Assembly (NCBI RefSeq): GCF_026460945.1
Contig: NZ_JAOVZV010000015.1
Span: forward strand, 1-64,000
Length of the DNA stretch: 64,000 nucleotides
Direction: 5' to 3'
Origin: Chryseobacterium luquanense
Lineage (GTDB): Bacteria > Bacteroidota > Bacteroidia > Flavobacteriales > Weeksellaceae
Below, in pieces: positions 53,988-61,427 of this stretch. The position numbers and the translations under genes are program-made. The notes below the pieces were generated by a model that was given only the letters and a program-made list of their open reading frames with translations, did not search any database and was not told where the DNA came from. Numbering within the stretch: the stretch's first letter is position 1; every line of letters starts with the position of its first letter.

Positions 53988-54017
53988 AGGACAGATTGCA
54001 TAAATCTGTCCTTTTTA
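53988..54017 (+). terminator. Terminator of the small peptide gene
   Basis: A perfect 10-bp stem AGGACAGATT / AATCTGTCCT, loop GCATA, then TTTTATT. Its position rules out the upstream starts of the kinase frame. Confidence 0.85.
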
Positions 54018-54043
54018 TTATTTTGCGGGTAAAACTAATTTTA

Positions 54044-55690
54044 ATGAAATACTTATTCCCAATAATTTTATTATTAACTATTTCTTCTTGCAAGAATGAT
54101 AAAATAACGTCAACAGATAATACTAATTATAAATATGCAAGGTTTTTTAGAGAGTCCAAAGTTTTAGATTCAGCTTTTTATTACTATAATTTAGCCAAAA
54201 ATGATTATTTAAAAATCAAAGATTCTTTGGGTGCAGGGAAATCATTAGTAAATATGGCTATGATCCAAACCCAAAAAGGTGATTTTTATGGAGGAATAGA
54301 ATCATCACTTGAAGCAAACAAATACCTTAAAAGAGTAAAAGATAGTACAACAAGGAGCACCTTAGCTACAAATTATAATAACATTGCATTTTCATCAAAC
54401 TTTCTTAAAAATTTTGATCAATCATTGAAGTATTATTTTAAAACTTTAGAATATATTGATGAAAACAATAGCCTTAAATTTATTTGTTACAATAATATTG
54501 GTGATGTTTTAATAACACAAGGAAAATTTAGTTTAGCAGAAAAATATTTGGAAAAAGCAATTTCAGCAAAAGAACCAAGTTATTACTCGATGGCTCTTAA
54601 TAATTTAGCTAAAGCAAAGTATTTAAATAATAAAAACTATAATCCTCTCCCAGAATTATATAAAGCTTTGGAAATTAGAAAAAACAATAATGATAATGAA
54701 GGTTTAAATTCAAGTTATGAAACTCTATCTGAATATTTCATACTAAAAGACAAATCATTATCATTAGATTTTGCAAAAAAAATGCTTTTATCTGCAAATA
54801 AAAATAAAAGTTCAAAAGACCAGATATTAGCATTAAAAAAAATTATAAAACTTGACCCCATAAACTATTTAGAGAGTTTTCAAAAATTAGATTCCATAAG
54901 CACAATTGTCCAGACAGAAAGGAGTAAAGCAAAAAATCAGTTTGCAGTTGTACGATATGATGTTGAACAGAAAAATGCTCAAAACCAAACTCTAAAAACA
55001 CAAAGTTTTAAACAATCTGTTAGCATTGTGTCATTAGCAATCATCTTAATCACAGGCTTTTTCTGGAACGAAAAAAGAAAGAAAAATATTAGAAGAGAAA
55101 AGGAACAAGAAAAACAACTTGAAGTAAAAAATACAGAACTTAGATATTCCAAAAAAGTACACGACGTCGTTGCCAACGGAATCTACCAAGTCATGACAAA
55201 AATTGAAAATCAAGATAGTTTCAGTAAAGAAGAAGCGCTTGATGAATTGGAATTTGTCTATGAAAAATCCAGAGATATTTCTTACGAAAAACCAGATTCT
55301 CCTGGTCAGGAATTCGGACAAATAATTTCAAACCTCATCGCATCTTTTAAGAATGATAACGTCAACACTTTTACCGTTGGAAATGAAGAAAAAACATGGC
55401 ACAACATTACAGAATTTACCAAAACCGAAATTTATCAAATAATCCGTGAATTGCTCGTTAACATGAAAAAACACAGCAGAGCAACCAATGTTATTTTTAA
55501 ATTTGAAAAAATAGATAATCAGGTAAATATCGGATATTCCGATAACGGGATCGGCGTTTCAGATGAGTTAACTTTCAAAAACGGATTATCAAATACGGTT
55601 TCCCGTATAGAAAGCATCAACGGAAAAATTATTTTTGACACCAAAACCGAAAAAGGATTGAAAATTAATATTTCATTTCCTGTTTCTTAA
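54044..55690 (+). CDS. TPR-containing lipoprotein-type sensor histidine kinase
   Basis: A 548-residue protein started at ATG 54044, giving a leader with lipobox ISSC (Cys16) and avoiding a terminator upstream. Residues 25-290 contain tetratricopeptide repeats outside the membrane (SALIKVANMALNNL-type units such as LGAGKSLVNMAMIQ, NYNNIAFSSNFL, CYNNIGDVLITQGKF). One membrane segment is at about 326-342 (SIVSLAIILITGFFW). The kinase part has HisKA_3-like His373 in KKVHDVVANGIYQ and a HATPase domain (ELLVNMKKHSRA, YSDNGIGV). Typical of Bacteroidota NarL-class kinases. It is followed 11 bp later by its response regulator. Confidence 0.85.
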   Translation: MKYLFPIILLLTISSCKNDKITSTDNTNYKYARFFRESKVLDSAFYYYNLAKNDYLKIKDSLGAGKSLVNMAMIQTQKGDFYGGIESSLEANKYLKRVKDSTTRSTLATNYNNIAFSSNFLKNFDQSLKYYFKTLEYIDENNSLKFICYNNIGDVLITQGKFSLAEKYLEKAISAKEPSYYSMALNNLAKAKYLNNKNYNPLPELYKALEIRKNNNDNEGLNSSYETLSEYFILKDKSLSLDFAKKMLLSANKNKSSKDQILALKKIIKLDPINYLESFQKLDSISTIVQTERSKAKNQFAVVRYDVEQKNAQNQTLKTQSFKQSVSIVSLAIILITGFFWNEKRKKNIRREKEQEKQLEVKNTELRYSKKVHDVVANGIYQVMTKIENQDSFSKEEALDELEFVYEKSRDISYEKPDSPGQEFGQIISNLIASFKNDNVNTFTVGNEEKTWHNITEFTKTEIYQIIRELLVNMKKHSRATNVIFKFEKIDNQVNIGYSDNGIGVSDELTFKNGLSNTVSRIESINGKIIFDTKTEKGLKINISFPVS

Positions 55691-55701
55691 AAAAATAAAT
55701 A

Positions 55702-56367
55702 ATGTTTAAAAAAATTTTAATTTCCGAAGATCACGAAAGCATCAATATTTCTGTTCAAAAAACATTAGAAGAACTCAATATCACCAATTTTGACTATGTT
55801 TATTATTGTGATGATGCATTAGCAAAAGCCGAAAAATCAATCCGTGAAAAACAACCTTATGATTTATTAATCACAGATCTTTATTACGAAGAAGATCATC
55901 TTCCTCAAAAATTAAAAGACGGTCGGGAATTGATTTCAGCCATCCGAAAAGAGCAGCCTGATTTAAAAATAATTGTTTTTTCTGCAGAGCATAAATCCGG
56001 AATCATTGATTCTTTATTTACCGATTACGGAATTAATGGCTATGTACGAAAAGCAAGACATGATTCAAAGGAATTAAAAAAAGCAATCGCATCTGTTTAC
56101 AATAATGAAAATTACCTTTCGCTTGACCTTAAACAGGATATTAAAAAACTAAATAATTACGAATTTACAACGTATGACATTACTTTGGTTTCATTGCTTG
56201 CTCAAGGAGTTTTACAAAAAAACATTCCCATTTTCTTACAAAACAACAATATAAAACCCAATAGTTTAAGCAGCATTGAAAAGAAAATCAATACACTAAA
56301 AGAAGAACTCGGAGTCAGTAACAATGAGCAACTCGTCGCTTTCTGCAAAGATTTAGGAATTATATAA
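55702..56367 (+). CDS. Response regulator partner of the TPR kinase
   Basis: A 221-residue protein. Receiver domain 1-125 with SEDHESIN acidic pair, phosphoacceptor Asp59 in LLITDLYYEEDH, and VFSAEH. The C-terminal region (about 150-221) is a LuxR-type helix-turn-helix that is divergent: the usual recognition words are weak (SLLAQGVLQKNIPIFLQNNN, IEKKINTLKEELGVSNNEQL). It probably binds DNA as a dimer; the palindromes at 53459 and 56420 are the proposed sites. Confidence 0.8.
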   Translation: MFKKILISEDHESINISVQKTLEELNITNFDYVYYCDDALAKAEKSIREKQPYDLLITDLYYEEDHLPQKLKDGRELISAIRKEQPDLKIIVFSAEHKSGIIDSLFTDYGINGYVRKARHDSKELKKAIASVYNNENYLSLDLKQDIKKLNNYEFTTYDITLVSLLAQGVLQKNIPIFLQNNNIKPNSLSSIEKKINTLKEELGVSNNEQLVAFCKDLGII

Positions 56368-57687: not shown

Positions 57688-58395
57688 ATGAAAAAAATTG
57701 TTCTGATTGAAGATGAAACCAGCGTTGTCTCTTTTATTAAAAAAGGACTGCAGGAAAAAGGATATGAAATTTCTGTCGCTTTCGACGGTCTTACAGGTGT
57801 AAGTTTGGTGCAGGAAAACGATTTCGATTTGGTTATCCTTGATATTATGCTGCCCGAAATGAACGGTTTGGATGTCTGCAAAGAGATCCGAAAAACCAAT
57901 AAAAGTGTTCCTATTTTATTTTTAACCGCTTTAGGAACCTCAGAAAACATCGTTTTAGGTCTGGAAAACGGTGGCGATGATTATCTTGTTAAGCCTTTCA
58001 AGTTTATTGAATTAGTTGCTCGTGTAAAATCACTTTTGCGCAGAAGCAATCCGATTTCCACTCCGGAAGCTACGGAAAATGAAGAAGAAAACGAGTACGT
58101 TTTTAAGTTTTCAGATTTAATTGTGAATGATTACTCCAAAAAAGTAATTCGTGCAGGTGAAGAAGTTTCTTTAACCTCAACTGAATATAAGCTTCTGATA
58201 TATTTCTTAAACAATCCTGAAAAAGTAATATCAAGAGCTGAAATTTTGGATGCAGTTTGGGGCGTAAATTACGAATTGGGAACCAATGTTGTCGATGTTT
58301 ACGTTAATTATTTAAGAAAAAAAATAGACAATCATGAAGACAACAAGCTCATTCACACCGTAATAGGAATGGGATATGTTTTAAAAAAACCTTAG
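57688..58395 (+). CDS. OmpR/PhoB-type response regulator
   Basis: A 235-residue protein. Receiver domain 1-125 with acidic pair E8/D9, phosphoacceptor Asp52 (LVILDIMLPEMNG), and LFLTALG, VKPF. C-terminal winged helix 140-235: LTSTEYKLLIYFLNNPEKVISRAEIL and NVVDVYVNYLRKKID, GMGYVLKKP. OmpR-type regulators bind direct repeats spaced 11 bp; such repeats occur at 59838-59901 in front of the next gene. Co-transcribed with the kinase 3 bp downstream. Confidence 0.93.
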   Translation: MKKIVLIEDETSVVSFIKKGLQEKGYEISVAFDGLTGVSLVQENDFDLVILDIMLPEMNGLDVCKEIRKTNKSVPILFLTALGTSENIVLGLENGGDDYLVKPFKFIELVARVKSLLRRSNPISTPEATENEEENEYVFKFSDLIVNDYSKKVIRAGEEVSLTSTEYKLLIYFLNNPEKVISRAEILDAVWGVNYELGTNVVDVYVNYLRKKIDNHEDNKLIHTVIGMGYVLKKP

Positions 58396-58398
58396 AAA

Positions 58399-59808
58399 AT
58401 GTTTAATAGAGTCGTTACCAATCAAACCAAAACAATGGTACTTTTGATGGTTGTTTTTACAACCGTTATCTTGATTTTTGGTGGATCTGTGTACTTTTCT
58501 ATTGTAAATTTTTCACATCAGAGATTTTATGAATTGCTTAAAATCCGTACGACGACGATTGTACAGATTGAAAAAGGTAAAGAACATCTTGATCTTCCCG
58601 AAAATTACATTCTCAACAGCAGAAATGACGAAGAGCTTCCTATGGAAAGAGATTATGTTTTTGCCGTTCCAACAGATTCAAATTTTAAAAAGATTTCGCA
58701 CGAAGTTCACATTCCAGATTCTTTTTTTAAAAATATTATCAGAAGAGGTGAAGCCAATTTCAATGATTCTGAATTTTATTATATCGGACAATCTTTTAGG
58801 TATCAAAACAAAGACTATATCGCAATTGCTTCGGCAAAAAACCATTACGTCGTTCATTATCTTGGGTTTTTAAAAAGGACTTTGATTACATGTATGATTC
58901 TTTCCATCTTTTTCAGCATGATTTTCTCTTTTTATTTGTCTAAAACTTTATTTAAACCCATTCTTAAAATCACTGGAAAAGTAAAAGAAATCAGTTCTGA
59001 AAATCTACATTTAAGACTTGAACCTCAACCAGACAACAAAGAATTAAATGAATTGGTGGAAACGTTCAACACGATGTTGACAAGAATTGAAACTTCTTTT
59101 GAAACCCAAAATCATTTGATTGGAAATGTTTCACACGAACTTCGAACCCCACTCACTTCGATAATGGGAGAAGCGGACGTCGCACTCTCTATCAACAGAA
59201 CAGCTGATGAATATAAAGAAACGCTTGAAATCATTCTTGATGAAGCAGAAAAGCTTGACAAAAAAATCAAAGCACTTCTTTTAATTGCACAAACTGGATT
59301 TGATGGCAGAATTCAGAAAATCGATAAAGTAAGAATCGATCAACTTTTATGGGATGTTATTGAAACTTTAAGAAAAATAGATTCCCGAAATAATATTTAT
59401 CTCGACATCAGTATGCTTCCTGACAATCCGAAAAAACTGAAAGTTCAAGGAAATGAGCAGCTTCTTCATTTAGCGGTTGCCAATATTATCAATAACGGTT
59501 GTAAATATTCTAATCATCAACAGGTAAAAGTCTCGTTGGGCGCAACAGATACCGATCTTTATATCATTGTGAAAGACAACGGAATCGGTATCCCCGAGTC
59601 TGAAATGAATAAAATCTATGATCCGTTTTTCCGTGCTTCCAACACCCGAAATTATGAAGGTTACGGTATCGGACTTCCTTTAGCAAGAAACATTGTGAGA
59701 ATGCATAACGGAGAATTGCTTGTGAGTTCACATGAAAATCAGGGAACAACTGTGCAAATGCGTTTTCCTACTATTTACGGTACTCAGAAGGAAGAAAATC
59801 CATCTTAG
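58399..59808 (+). CDS. HAMP-type sensor histidine kinase
   Basis: A 469-residue inner-membrane kinase. Helix 1 at about 10-35 (TMVLLMVVFTTVILIFGGSVYF), a periplasmic sensor of about 110 residues, helix 2 near 158-178 (LITCMILSIFFSMIFSFYL), HAMP linker (TGKVKEISSENLHLRL), H box with His246 (NVSHELRTPLTS), and ATPase boxes NIINNGCKYSN, KDNGIGI and FFRAS..YEGYGIGLPLA. The partner is the upstream regulator. The signal is unknown. Confidence 0.92.
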   Translation: MFNRVVTNQTKTMVLLMVVFTTVILIFGGSVYFSIVNFSHQRFYELLKIRTTTIVQIEKGKEHLDLPENYILNSRNDEELPMERDYVFAVPTDSNFKKISHEVHIPDSFFKNIIRRGEANFNDSEFYYIGQSFRYQNKDYIAIASAKNHYVVHYLGFLKRTLITCMILSIFFSMIFSFYLSKTLFKPILKITGKVKEISSENLHLRLEPQPDNKELNELVETFNTMLTRIETSFETQNHLIGNVSHELRTPLTSIMGEADVALSINRTADEYKETLEIILDEAEKLDKKIKALLLIAQTGFDGRIQKIDKVRIDQLLWDVIETLRKIDSRNNIYLDISMLPDNPKKLKVQGNEQLLHLAVANIINNGCKYSNHQQVKVSLGATDTDLYIIVKDNGIGIPESEMNKIYDPFFRASNTRNYEGYGIGLPLARNIVRMHNGELLVSSHENQGTTVQMRFPTIYGTQKEENPS

Positions 59809-59828
59809 CTTCAAAATGAAGCATTTTT
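59808..59828 (+). terminator. Terminator of the OmpR-type operon
   Basis: GCTTCA-AAA-TGAAGC stem followed by ATTTTT. Confidence 0.65.
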
Positions 59829-59837
59829 AAAATGAAA

Positions 59838-59901
59838 TTCTAATCTCATTTTAATCTCTTTAATTACATTTTAATTTCGTTCCAAAGACCTTCTAATCTT
59901 A
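59838..59901 (+). promoter_or_regulatory. Tandem OmpR-type binding repeats
   Basis: TT(C/T)TAAT-like half-sites at 59838, 59849, 59858 (CTTTAAT), 59869, 59880 (weak) and 59891; three pairs each spaced 11 bp. They precede the -7 element at 59908, with the last half-site near the -33 region. Proposed targets of the 57688 regulator. Confidence 0.55.
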
Positions 59902-59907
59902 CAGGTA

Positions 59908-59915
59908 TAGTTTTG
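59908..59915 (+). promoter_or_regulatory. -7 element TAGTTTTG of the 59953 gene
   Basis: Full match to TAnnTTTG, about 34 nt of leader. Confidence 0.55.
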
Positions 59916-59952: not shown

Positions 59953-60450
59953 ATGATCAAAACCATTTTAATAGCAACAGATTATTCTCTTGAGTCTTTG
60001 AATATTTTAAAAAGAGTTTTAAAAGAGAAAAACGCAGAAGAAAATGATACTCAGTACAAGATTCTACTTGTATCGGGCTATGATATGGGAGATTCTATCA
60101 GAGATCTTCTTTTCAATACAAAATCTACCGTTTTCAGCAAAATCAGATCTAAAGAATTCTGCGACGCTTACGGAATTATCGTTAATAAATACCCTCATTT
60201 AGTAGACAAAATTGTTTGCGATATTTTCTCGGGAAGTTTCCAAAGAGCTTTTAATAATTATGTGAAAGCTGAAGAAATTACAGAAGCGTATTATTCAACA
60301 TCGCTGAAAAACAAAAATACCAAAGGAAAATTTGATCTTTCTCCTTACATCAAGAAATGCAAAGACCTTTCTTCTCAGGAAGTGGTATTTGGAACTCCTC
60401 AATTTATGCCGGAAAAAGGCAGATTAGCGGAAGTTTTCGTTGAAGTTTAA
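59953..60450 (+). CDS. Conserved hypothetical protein with UspA-like start
   Basis: A 165-residue soluble protein beginning KTILIATDYSLESLNILKRVL, similar to the first strand and helix of universal stress proteins (IATD.S..a...l), but the ATP-binding GxxG end is absent. YKILLVSGYDMGDSIRDLLF and ITEAYYSTSLKNKNTKGKFDLS follow. It is the first gene after the OmpR-type repeats, so it is probably under control of the 57688/58399 pair. Function unknown. Confidence 0.55.
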   Translation: MIKTILIATDYSLESLNILKRVLKEKNAEENDTQYKILLVSGYDMGDSIRDLLFNTKSTVFSKIRSKEFCDAYGIIVNKYPHLVDKIVCDIFSGSFQRAFNNYVKAEEITEAYYSTSLKNKNTKGKFDLSPYIKKCKDLSSQEVVFGTPQFMPEKGRLAEVFVEV

Positions 60451-60487: not shown

Positions 60488-61342
60488 ATGTTAAGAAATT
60501 ATAGTAACAGCAGGACGTTGGGAGACAACATTAGACTGGGGACGCTGACTGCTTTTACAGCAGGAACTATAAATATTGCATCTCTATTAATATTTCTCTC
60601 TTTTACATCAAACGTAACGGGACATTACGCTGTTTTTGCAGCAGAAATCAGTAAAGGAAACTGGAATCAGGTTGCCGTAGTCGGAGCTTGGATTTTCCTT
60701 TTCTTCTTCGGAAGTTTTACCGCTAACTTTTTCGTTATTAATTTTAATAGGAAAAGTAAATATTTTGCGCATGCAATGCCGTTGGTTTTAGAAATTCTGT
60801 GTTTGTTAGCCGTTGGTTTTTACGGACATCATTATTATCAGAAAACTTTGGAAGAAGCTGAAGTTCTTGTCGGATTAATGTTATTCGCCACAGGTTTGCA
60901 GAATGGTTTAACAGCAAGTATATCTAATTTCTTGGTTAAAACCACTCACCTTACCGGTACAACAACTGATTTAGGAATCTTAGTATCAATGTTTACACAT
61001 AAAAAATACAGAAAAAACCCTGAGCTTATTGCAAGAGCTAAACTATTATCAAGCGTAATGTTGGCTTATGTTGCAGGAGCGGTTTTCTCGGGATTGACTT
61101 ATTATTCCCTAGAATTCAGTGTATTTTATGTAATAAGTGTTTGTTTGGTTGTCGTTATCGGTTATGATTTTTACAAAATCCACTTGAGACACTTCTATAC
61201 CAATTACAGGTATTCTAAAATATACCAAAAACCTAACCTGCTGTCTATACTTTATGATAAGATTCATGGGAGCGCAGAAGTATCAGCAAAACAGGAAAAG
61301 CCTAAAAAATCTAAATTGGTTTTAGAGGAAAAAATGATGTAA
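60488..61342 (+). CDS. YoaK/DUF1275 family membrane protein
   Basis: A 284-residue protein with about six transmembrane segments. DUF1275 words: LTAFTAGTINIASLLIFLSFTSNVTGH, WIFLFFFGSFTANFFV, MLFATGLQNGLTASISNF, KTTHLTGTTTDLGIL. A basic tail (KQEKPKKSKLVLEEKM) ends the protein. Function unknown. It follows the 59953 gene by 37 bp, probably the same transcript, and ends before a terminator. Confidence 0.85.
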   Translation: MLRNYSNSRTLGDNIRLGTLTAFTAGTINIASLLIFLSFTSNVTGHYAVFAAEISKGNWNQVAVVGAWIFLFFFGSFTANFFVINFNRKSKYFAHAMPLVLEILCLLAVGFYGHHYYQKTLEEAEVLVGLMLFATGLQNGLTASISNFLVKTTHLTGTTTDLGILVSMFTHKKYRKNPELIARAKLLSSVMLAYVAGAVFSGLTYYSLEFSVFYVISVCLVVVIGYDFYKIHLRHFYTNYRYSKIYQKPNLLSILYDKIHGSAEVSAKQEKPKKSKLVLEEKMM

Positions 61343-61394
61343 CGTCATTTTAATTAAAATTTGGACAGCACAAATTGTATATACTTAGTTTGGG

Positions 61395-61427
61395 GCTCCT
61401 GATTGTTTACAATTAGGGGCTTTTTTT
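61395..61427 (+). terminator. Terminator of the YoaK gene
   Basis: GCTCCTGATTGT / ACAATTAGGGGC stem with two G-U pairs, followed by seven T. Confidence 0.7.

Follow-up and report, generated by a model that had tools for sequence, protein, structure and literature searches.

Six 7 bp half-sites, spanning positions 59838-59897 of the window (the whole stretch of 64,000 nucleotides that was analysed), probably form a composite operator, at which the neighbouring PhoB-type regulator would bind cooperatively and activate an operon of a UspA-like gene and a DUF1275 gene. Read directly, the half-sites follow each other at start-to-start distances of 11, 9, 11, 11 and 11 bp (Table 1), and 10 bp separate the end of the array from the Bacteroidota −7 box TAGTTTTG. 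This is the arrangement of a direct-repeat operator, in which a promoter is preceded by tandem repeats with a period of about 11 bp, and the 9 bp step is its sole departure. A sequence-only reading of this DNA had described six TT(C/T)TAAT half-sites in three pairs of 11 bp spacing. The six positions are real, although the half-site at 59858 has one mismatch and that at 59880 has two; the 11 bp spacing also holds, but it extends from 59869 to 59880 as well, so that the sites fall into groups of two and four, with the 9 bp step between sites 2 and 3.

Table 1. Operator half-sites, promoter box, genes and likely terminators of the region (window positions; bits are means over the 62 distinct upstream regions).
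Feature	Position	Strand	Remarks
Half-site 1, TTCTAAT	59838..59844	+	1.98 bits
Half-site 2, TTTTAAT	59849..59855	+	1.92 bits
Half-site 3, CTTTAAT	59858..59864	+	9 bp after site 2; 1.94 bits
Half-site 4, TTTTAAT	59869..59875	+	1.97 bits
Half-site 5, TTCCAAA	59880..59886	+	deviant yet conserved; 1.95 bits
Half-site 6, TTCTAAT	59891..59897	+	starts 17 bp before the −7 box; 1.84 bits
−7 promoter box, TAGTTTTG (TAnnTTTG)	59908..59915	+	95.4% mean pairwise identity (40 named loci)
P0001, OmpR/PhoB-type response regulator gene, 235 aa	57688..58395	+	proposed binder; Pfam domains
P0002, sensor histidine kinase gene, 469 aa	58399..59808	+	cognate by adjacency; Pfam HATPase_c, HisKA, HAMP
Likely intrinsic terminator of the regulator-kinase transcript	59808..59822	+	GCTTC hairpin, then T run
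P0003, target gene 1, 165 aa, UspA-like predicted fold	59953..60450	+	AlphaFold2, Foldseek
P0004, target gene 2, 284 aa, DUF1275 (YoaK-like)	60488..61342	+	Pfam PF06912, 99.6 bits (cut-off 25.4)
Likely terminator of the P0003-YoaK operon	61392..61423	+	1 found vs 0.7 expected

The −7 box consensus of Bacteroidota, TAnnTTTG, is placed at −12 to −5 in the available text of PMC9723704; with TAGTTTTG at these positions, the predicted transcription start is at about 59920, 33 bp upstream of the P0003 start codon. A sigma-70 promoter scan gave matches at chance level only. Counted from the predicted start, site 5 occupies about −40 to −34 and site 6 about −29 to −23, so that they surround the −33 region, as they would if the array covered this region and blocked RNA polymerase. 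Repression of this kind is unlikely. The −33 element is a TTTG-like motif, and none is evident in 59880-59900, which fits activation, while the fixed phase of the array to the −7 box would suit contact with the polymerase. The 10 bp distance is also the same as at PhoB-activated promoters of E. coli, where, according to passages of PMC1906773, 10 bp separate the PhoB boxes from the −10.

From the 71 P0003 loci, 62 distinct upstream regions were obtained, that of the window among them; the named and the unnamed loci are partly the same, and duplicates were removed by sequence. Absence of the repeats from orthologous promoters had been named as an outcome that would speak against the reading of the sequence alone, and they are present in all 62 Chryseobacterium upstreams and in all 42 family genomes with P0003. 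The 80 bp block, which begins with the first half-site and ends shortly after the −7 box, aligns without gaps in 62/62 upstreams, and 42 of its 80 columns are invariant among the 55 distinct blocks. Over the 62 upstreams, each half-site position carries 1.84-1.98 bits of information, compared with 0.7-1.9 bits for the spacers and 0.42 bits for the flank upstream. Mean pairwise identity across the 40 named loci reaches 97.7% in the half-sites and 68.1% in the spacers, whereas P0003 has 50.8% at its fourfold sites and the flank 31.2%. Two extra TTAA words, 10 bp apart, precede the array in 36 of the 62 upstreams (the window's own strain is without them), and are in 11 bp phase with site 1 in 32 of those 36.

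Within the window, a single pair of the form TTYTAAT-N4-TTYTAAT with two or fewer mismatches is not enriched (42 found, 35.7 ± 6.4 expected), as would be the case if the repeats were chance A+T-rich sequence. The four-site run of 11 bp spacing at 59858 matches at 25 of 28 positions, the best score for any spacing from 8 to 15 bp across the whole window; the maximum in 60 Markov-shuffled windows was 23, attained by three. This shuffled-window comparison is an untrained test; the matrix score of 33.4 for the window is circular, because the half-site matrix was trained on the block of this system (system 1). Conservation is a stronger test than the window statistics of the repeats, and conservation far above that of fourfold sites, with no indels in 62/62 upstreams, refutes a chance origin, which retains next to no probability. 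A near-identical second copy of the whole 80 bp block in one genome, G007 (L176:2927-3006, minus strand; same place in L128), also stands against chance: it ends at a −7 box about 270 bp before a glycosyltransferase gene (Gly_transf_sug) and looks like a duplicated promoter cassette. Strong constraint on an intergenic stretch could instead reflect a function as RNA, either as a leader or as a small RNA, but this is very improbable, as the block lies upstream of the predicted transcription start and no fold of the window's block is better than shuffles on either strand (z +1.2 and +0.7).

The block profile, P0003, the regulator and YoaK were each searched in the same 148 family genomes. P0003 occurs in 42 of these, and is preceded by the block in every case (41 at E <= 3.2e-13, and G162 weakly at 3.1e-4); all 42 have an ortholog of the regulator (60-100% identity; frame-broken in two) and 41 an ortholog of YoaK (53-100% identity), although the 42 genomes do not amount to 42 independent events, since their genera are related. 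None of the remaining 106 genomes has P0003 at E <= 0.001, and the regulator finds matches at E <= 1e-60 in eight of them, at 48-52% identity with none above 52%. The only member of the genus in the sample that is without P0003, G145, has no block (E <= 0.01), no regulator (E <= 1e-60) and only distant relatives of YoaK (33% and 27% identity). In G162, where P0003 is only about 31% identical, the sites are retained, a 19 bp step (about one helical turn more) replaces the 9 bp step, and the distance from the start of the last site to the −7 box is 18 bp.

Two genomes show changes in the target genes. G193 (L149) has no YoaK match in its genome, a P0003 of only 59% identity, and a block that is weaker (51.4 bits) and more diverged than any other in the sampled genus, as if constraint had eased after the loss of YoaK. 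In G125 (L150), an intact block is followed by a P0003 match that begins only at residue 29 and contains an internal stop; the 5′ end of the target gene seems to be damaged.

Weak profile hits were found in 9 of the 148 genomes, all nine being without P0003 (E 4.7e-4 to 0.0097). Inspection covered L169-L173, the other hits being L177 and L178 (G160, G194) and those in G143 and G103. The hit L169 (G124) is an array before MgtC, while L170-L173 (G108, G152, G120, G133) have no run of half-sites and were discarded. In genomes with P0003, the profile found second hits at nine places in nine genomes; five belong to a paralogous system (system E, below), L167 precedes MgtC, L175 consists of two half-sites before an ORF, and L168 and L174 look like chance matches.

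There are 1443 bp between the end of the regulator gene and the array; the sequence-only reading had given 1.4 kb. The product of the regulator gene, P0001, has the N-terminal receiver and C-terminal winged-helix domains of the OmpR/PhoB type (Pfam Response_reg PF00072, 99 bits, cut-off 30.2; Trans_reg_C PF00486, 90.4 bits, cut-off 26.2). D52 in DLVILDIMLPEMNG aligns with the phospho-acceptor aspartate of other regulators and is the putative site of phosphorylation, and the recognition helix, taken from the alignment with M. tuberculosis PhoP, is TNVVDVYVNYLRKKID. Assignment of P0001 as a PhoB equivalog was rejected, as it scores below the NCBIfam cut-offs (TIGR02154, 199.9 vs 296.2 bits; NF053854, 181.2 vs 270 bits). 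The best NCBIfam hits of the pair are TIGR01387 (heavy-metal cztR_silR_copR) for P0001 and TIGR01386 (CusS-type) for P0002, and membership was rejected for both, at 220.3 bits under a curated cut-off of 279.2 and 196.8 bits under 292.55, respectively. The likely terminator between the kinase gene and the array (1 found, 0.2 expected) has an RNA fold of −6.5 kcal/mol (z −2.2). Inspection by eye showed no array in front of the regulator's own gene, and so there is no sign of autoregulation. Elsewhere in the window, positions 55702-56367 encode a receiver-domain protein without a DNA-binding Pfam match, which follows a 564-aa ORF (53996-55690) that by eye looks like a sensor kinase.

The linkage of the regulator with the block is strong but not strict. 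The regulator-kinase pair lies directly upstream of the block in 34/40 named loci, so the description of the regulator as next door applies to most loci but fails in six (L048, L058, L062, L063, L065, L066). In these six loci and in three further genomes, the block is intact and an ortholog of the regulator is found elsewhere in the genome; among the genomes without adjacency, G009 and G063 have the same coordinates and are apparently a single genome. In G178 and G209, the regulator is split between two frames (L136:4228-4925, minus strand; L141:2005-2675, plus strand) while kinase, block and target genes are present and the block is intact. Both are multi-contig drafts, so the frame break may be a sequencing error or recent decay.

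No terminator was found by scan between P0003 and P0004, and the YoaK gene accompanies P0003 in 40/40 named loci. The window comes from a soil bacterium of the genus Chryseobacterium, and the closest named record is C. formosus, with a P0003 of 99% identity. P0003 has no family in Pfam (E <= 0.1) or NCBIfam (E <= 0.001), and was therefore rejected as a universal stress protein by sequence. Its AlphaFold2 model, for which the window and 28 named loci out of 40 supplied 29 sequences, has a mean pLDDT of 72.4; Foldseek matches it to universal stress proteins with E from 3.2e-5 and TM about 0.5, and VIA-align gives Z of at most 7.8, with comparable Z values for many alpha/beta proteins that are not Usp. 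With moderate confidence, the predicted fold is universal-stress-protein-like.

Paralogous arrays were found with the block profile and by a scan around other OmpR-type regulators. In system B, the array precedes a gene of 442 aa (weak porin match, under cut-off) that is divergent from a regulator of 43% identity (L179 in the window's genome; L192, L193). System C consists of a regulator-kinase pair, an array, and genes for outer-membrane efflux and CusB-like proteins (L180 in the window's genome; L199, L205), and has CAnnTTTG instead of TAnnTTTG at the −7 position. System E, from other genomes (L162-L166, L196, L197), has the same order with outer-membrane efflux and CzcB-like genes. Its array (six sites at L162:2394-2474) keeps 11 bp spacing throughout, and is the six-site plan of system 1 without the 2 bp slip; the fifth site deviates from TAAT in 7/7 arrays (TTCGAAA twice, and five other words), like TTCCAAA in system 1. 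Arrays of four half-sites precede MgtC and a magnesium P-type ATPase (L167:2313-2369, L169:3877-3918).

The positions of the half-sites relative to the −7 box fall into two registers, although not every site matches well in every paralogous array. Half-sites start 17, 28, 39, 50, 59 and 70 bp before the box in system 1, at 17, 28, 39 and 50 bp in system C, and from 17 to 72 bp in 11 bp steps in system E. In system B and the MgtC arrays they start at 29, 40, 51 and 62 bp, the last half-site of the MgtC arrays (L167, L169) thus being 29 bp before the box. The half-sites of the paralogs read TTCTAAT, CTCTAAT and TTTTAAG.

The regulators beside these arrays have recognition helices of the TNxxDVYxxYxRxK type in common. 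An intergenic array that scores higher than the 99% null level lies within 4.5 kb of 7/17 regulators with this type of helix and of 0/29 with other helices, and the p value of 3.6e-4 is too optimistic, because the seven positives represent three ortholog groups; inside the family, the counts are 7/9 and 0/9. The 46 regulators counted are those other than the window's own and those of regions ascertained by their arrays (L162-L166, L151), and passed a length filter of 200-300 aa; L194 (open frame 326 aa), L210 and L221 are not in the count. By eye, no array was seen within 4.5 kb at L187-L191, L201 and L203 (L190 is a 3.2 kb contig). L202 and L204 (f3 family) carry 11 bp TTTTAAG repeats that score 10.5 and 4.2, and count as misses because the TTYTAAT matrix scores such repeats low; L197 has a visible system E array scoring 10.7, below the threshold.

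Since related regulators sit beside very similar half-sites, cross-binding is possible: paralogs with near-identical helices adjoin half-sites very similar to those of system 1. The main binder of the PhoB-type operator could then be a paralog with the same helix encoded elsewhere (e.g., that of L179 or L180), with the neighbouring regulator incidental or sharing the sites. The six named loci without adjacency and the two of 42 genomes with a broken frame would be explained in this way. Such a binder is nevertheless rather improbable, as an orthologous regulator is found in 42/42 genomes with the block and P0003 and is missing from G145, which is without both, and systems B, C and E each have their own adjoining array. 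The sequence-only reading had predicted OmpR-type control of the operon from 59953 to YoaK. The operator-like layout upstream and the co-occurrence of the regulator in all 42 genomes agree with this, while the protein encoded at 57688 as the binder is suggested less directly, by linkage, co-occurrence and the parallel with the paralogs.

There is an even chance that one operator grammar holds across the TNxxDVYxxYxRxK branch of PhoB-like regulators in the family. It would comprise four to six TYTAAT-like sites (some TTTAAG) with a period of 11 bp and an anchor point 17 or 29 bp before TAnnTTTG, with the fifth site off TAAT in both six-site versions. If this is true, regulators could be paired with their targets from sequence alone across unstudied species.

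For system 1, activation by the neighbouring regulator would proceed as follows. Phosphorylated monomers, most likely of the regulator encoded at 57688 and responding to a signal through the kinase at 58399, would bind head-to-tail, one per 7 bp half-site, with 4 bp spacers between sites. They would form two cooperative runs, on sites 1-2 and sites 3-6, split by the 2 bp junction. The promoter-proximal run, which ends 10 bp before the −7 box, could take the place of a −33 element and recruit RNA polymerase, which would then transcribe P0003-YoaK from about 59920.

To our knowledge, operators of two-component regulators have rarely been defined at base resolution in Bacteroidota. The array offers an exact, testable site with one dominant target and strict spacing to the unusual −7 box of the phylum, and hence a route to how activators may act at promoters of this type. 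It connects the UspA-like orphan and the DUF1275 protein, both little known, with a single sensor, and suggests how the targets of related operons for efflux, porin-like proteins and magnesium transport could be read.

Operators built of tandem repeats are well established for regulators of the PhoB type. The E. coli Pho box is alike in having an OmpR/PhoB regulator, 11 bp direct repeats and a 10 bp distance to the downstream promoter element (PMC1906773, in the portions consulted); it differs in that the present array consists of TTYTAAT half-sites, six in number and with a 9 bp step, at a Bacteroidota −7 box and before unrelated targets, and in that P0001 scores under the NCBIfam PhoB cut-offs. 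The best solved relative of P0001 is M. tuberculosis PhoP (E 4.4e-46), the aligned helix being nvvesyvsylrrkid against nvvdvyvnylrkkid in P0001. According to passages of PMC4832192, PhoP occupies two 7 bp motifs with a 4 bp spacer as a tandem dimer and, with tighter binding, three or four of them as tandem trimers or tetramers; it loses about 20-fold with a 3 bp spacer. The repeat and spacer lengths are those of the present array, whereas the half-site (TCACAGC), the phylum and the targets are different. The boxes of PmrA (BasR) and HP1043 (HsrA), described in parts of PMC3973317 and PMC8345958 as CTTAAG/XTTAAT or TTTAAG hexamers with 5 bp spacers, are close to the TYTAAT-N5-TYTAAT of the array, but have two half-sites where the array has six; BasR and P0001 are only distantly related (E 8.9e-26), and HP1043 is likened by its box alone. 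CusR/CopR regulators (TIGR01387) and CusS-type kinases (TIGR01386) resemble the pair as its best NCBIfam hits, and two of the paralogous systems flank metal-efflux-like operons, but P0001 and P0002 both fall under the curated cut-offs. Among the matches listed by literature searches of open-licence PMC papers, none concerned the operator or the operon, and the passages of the RprY paper (PMC3646045) contain no such motif. The general type of operator is known, while this example and its strict layout seem undescribed. It is unusual in that a single promoter has six sites, of which the fifth is deviant yet conserved, and in its 2 bp slip and the two fixed anchor positions common to the paralogs.
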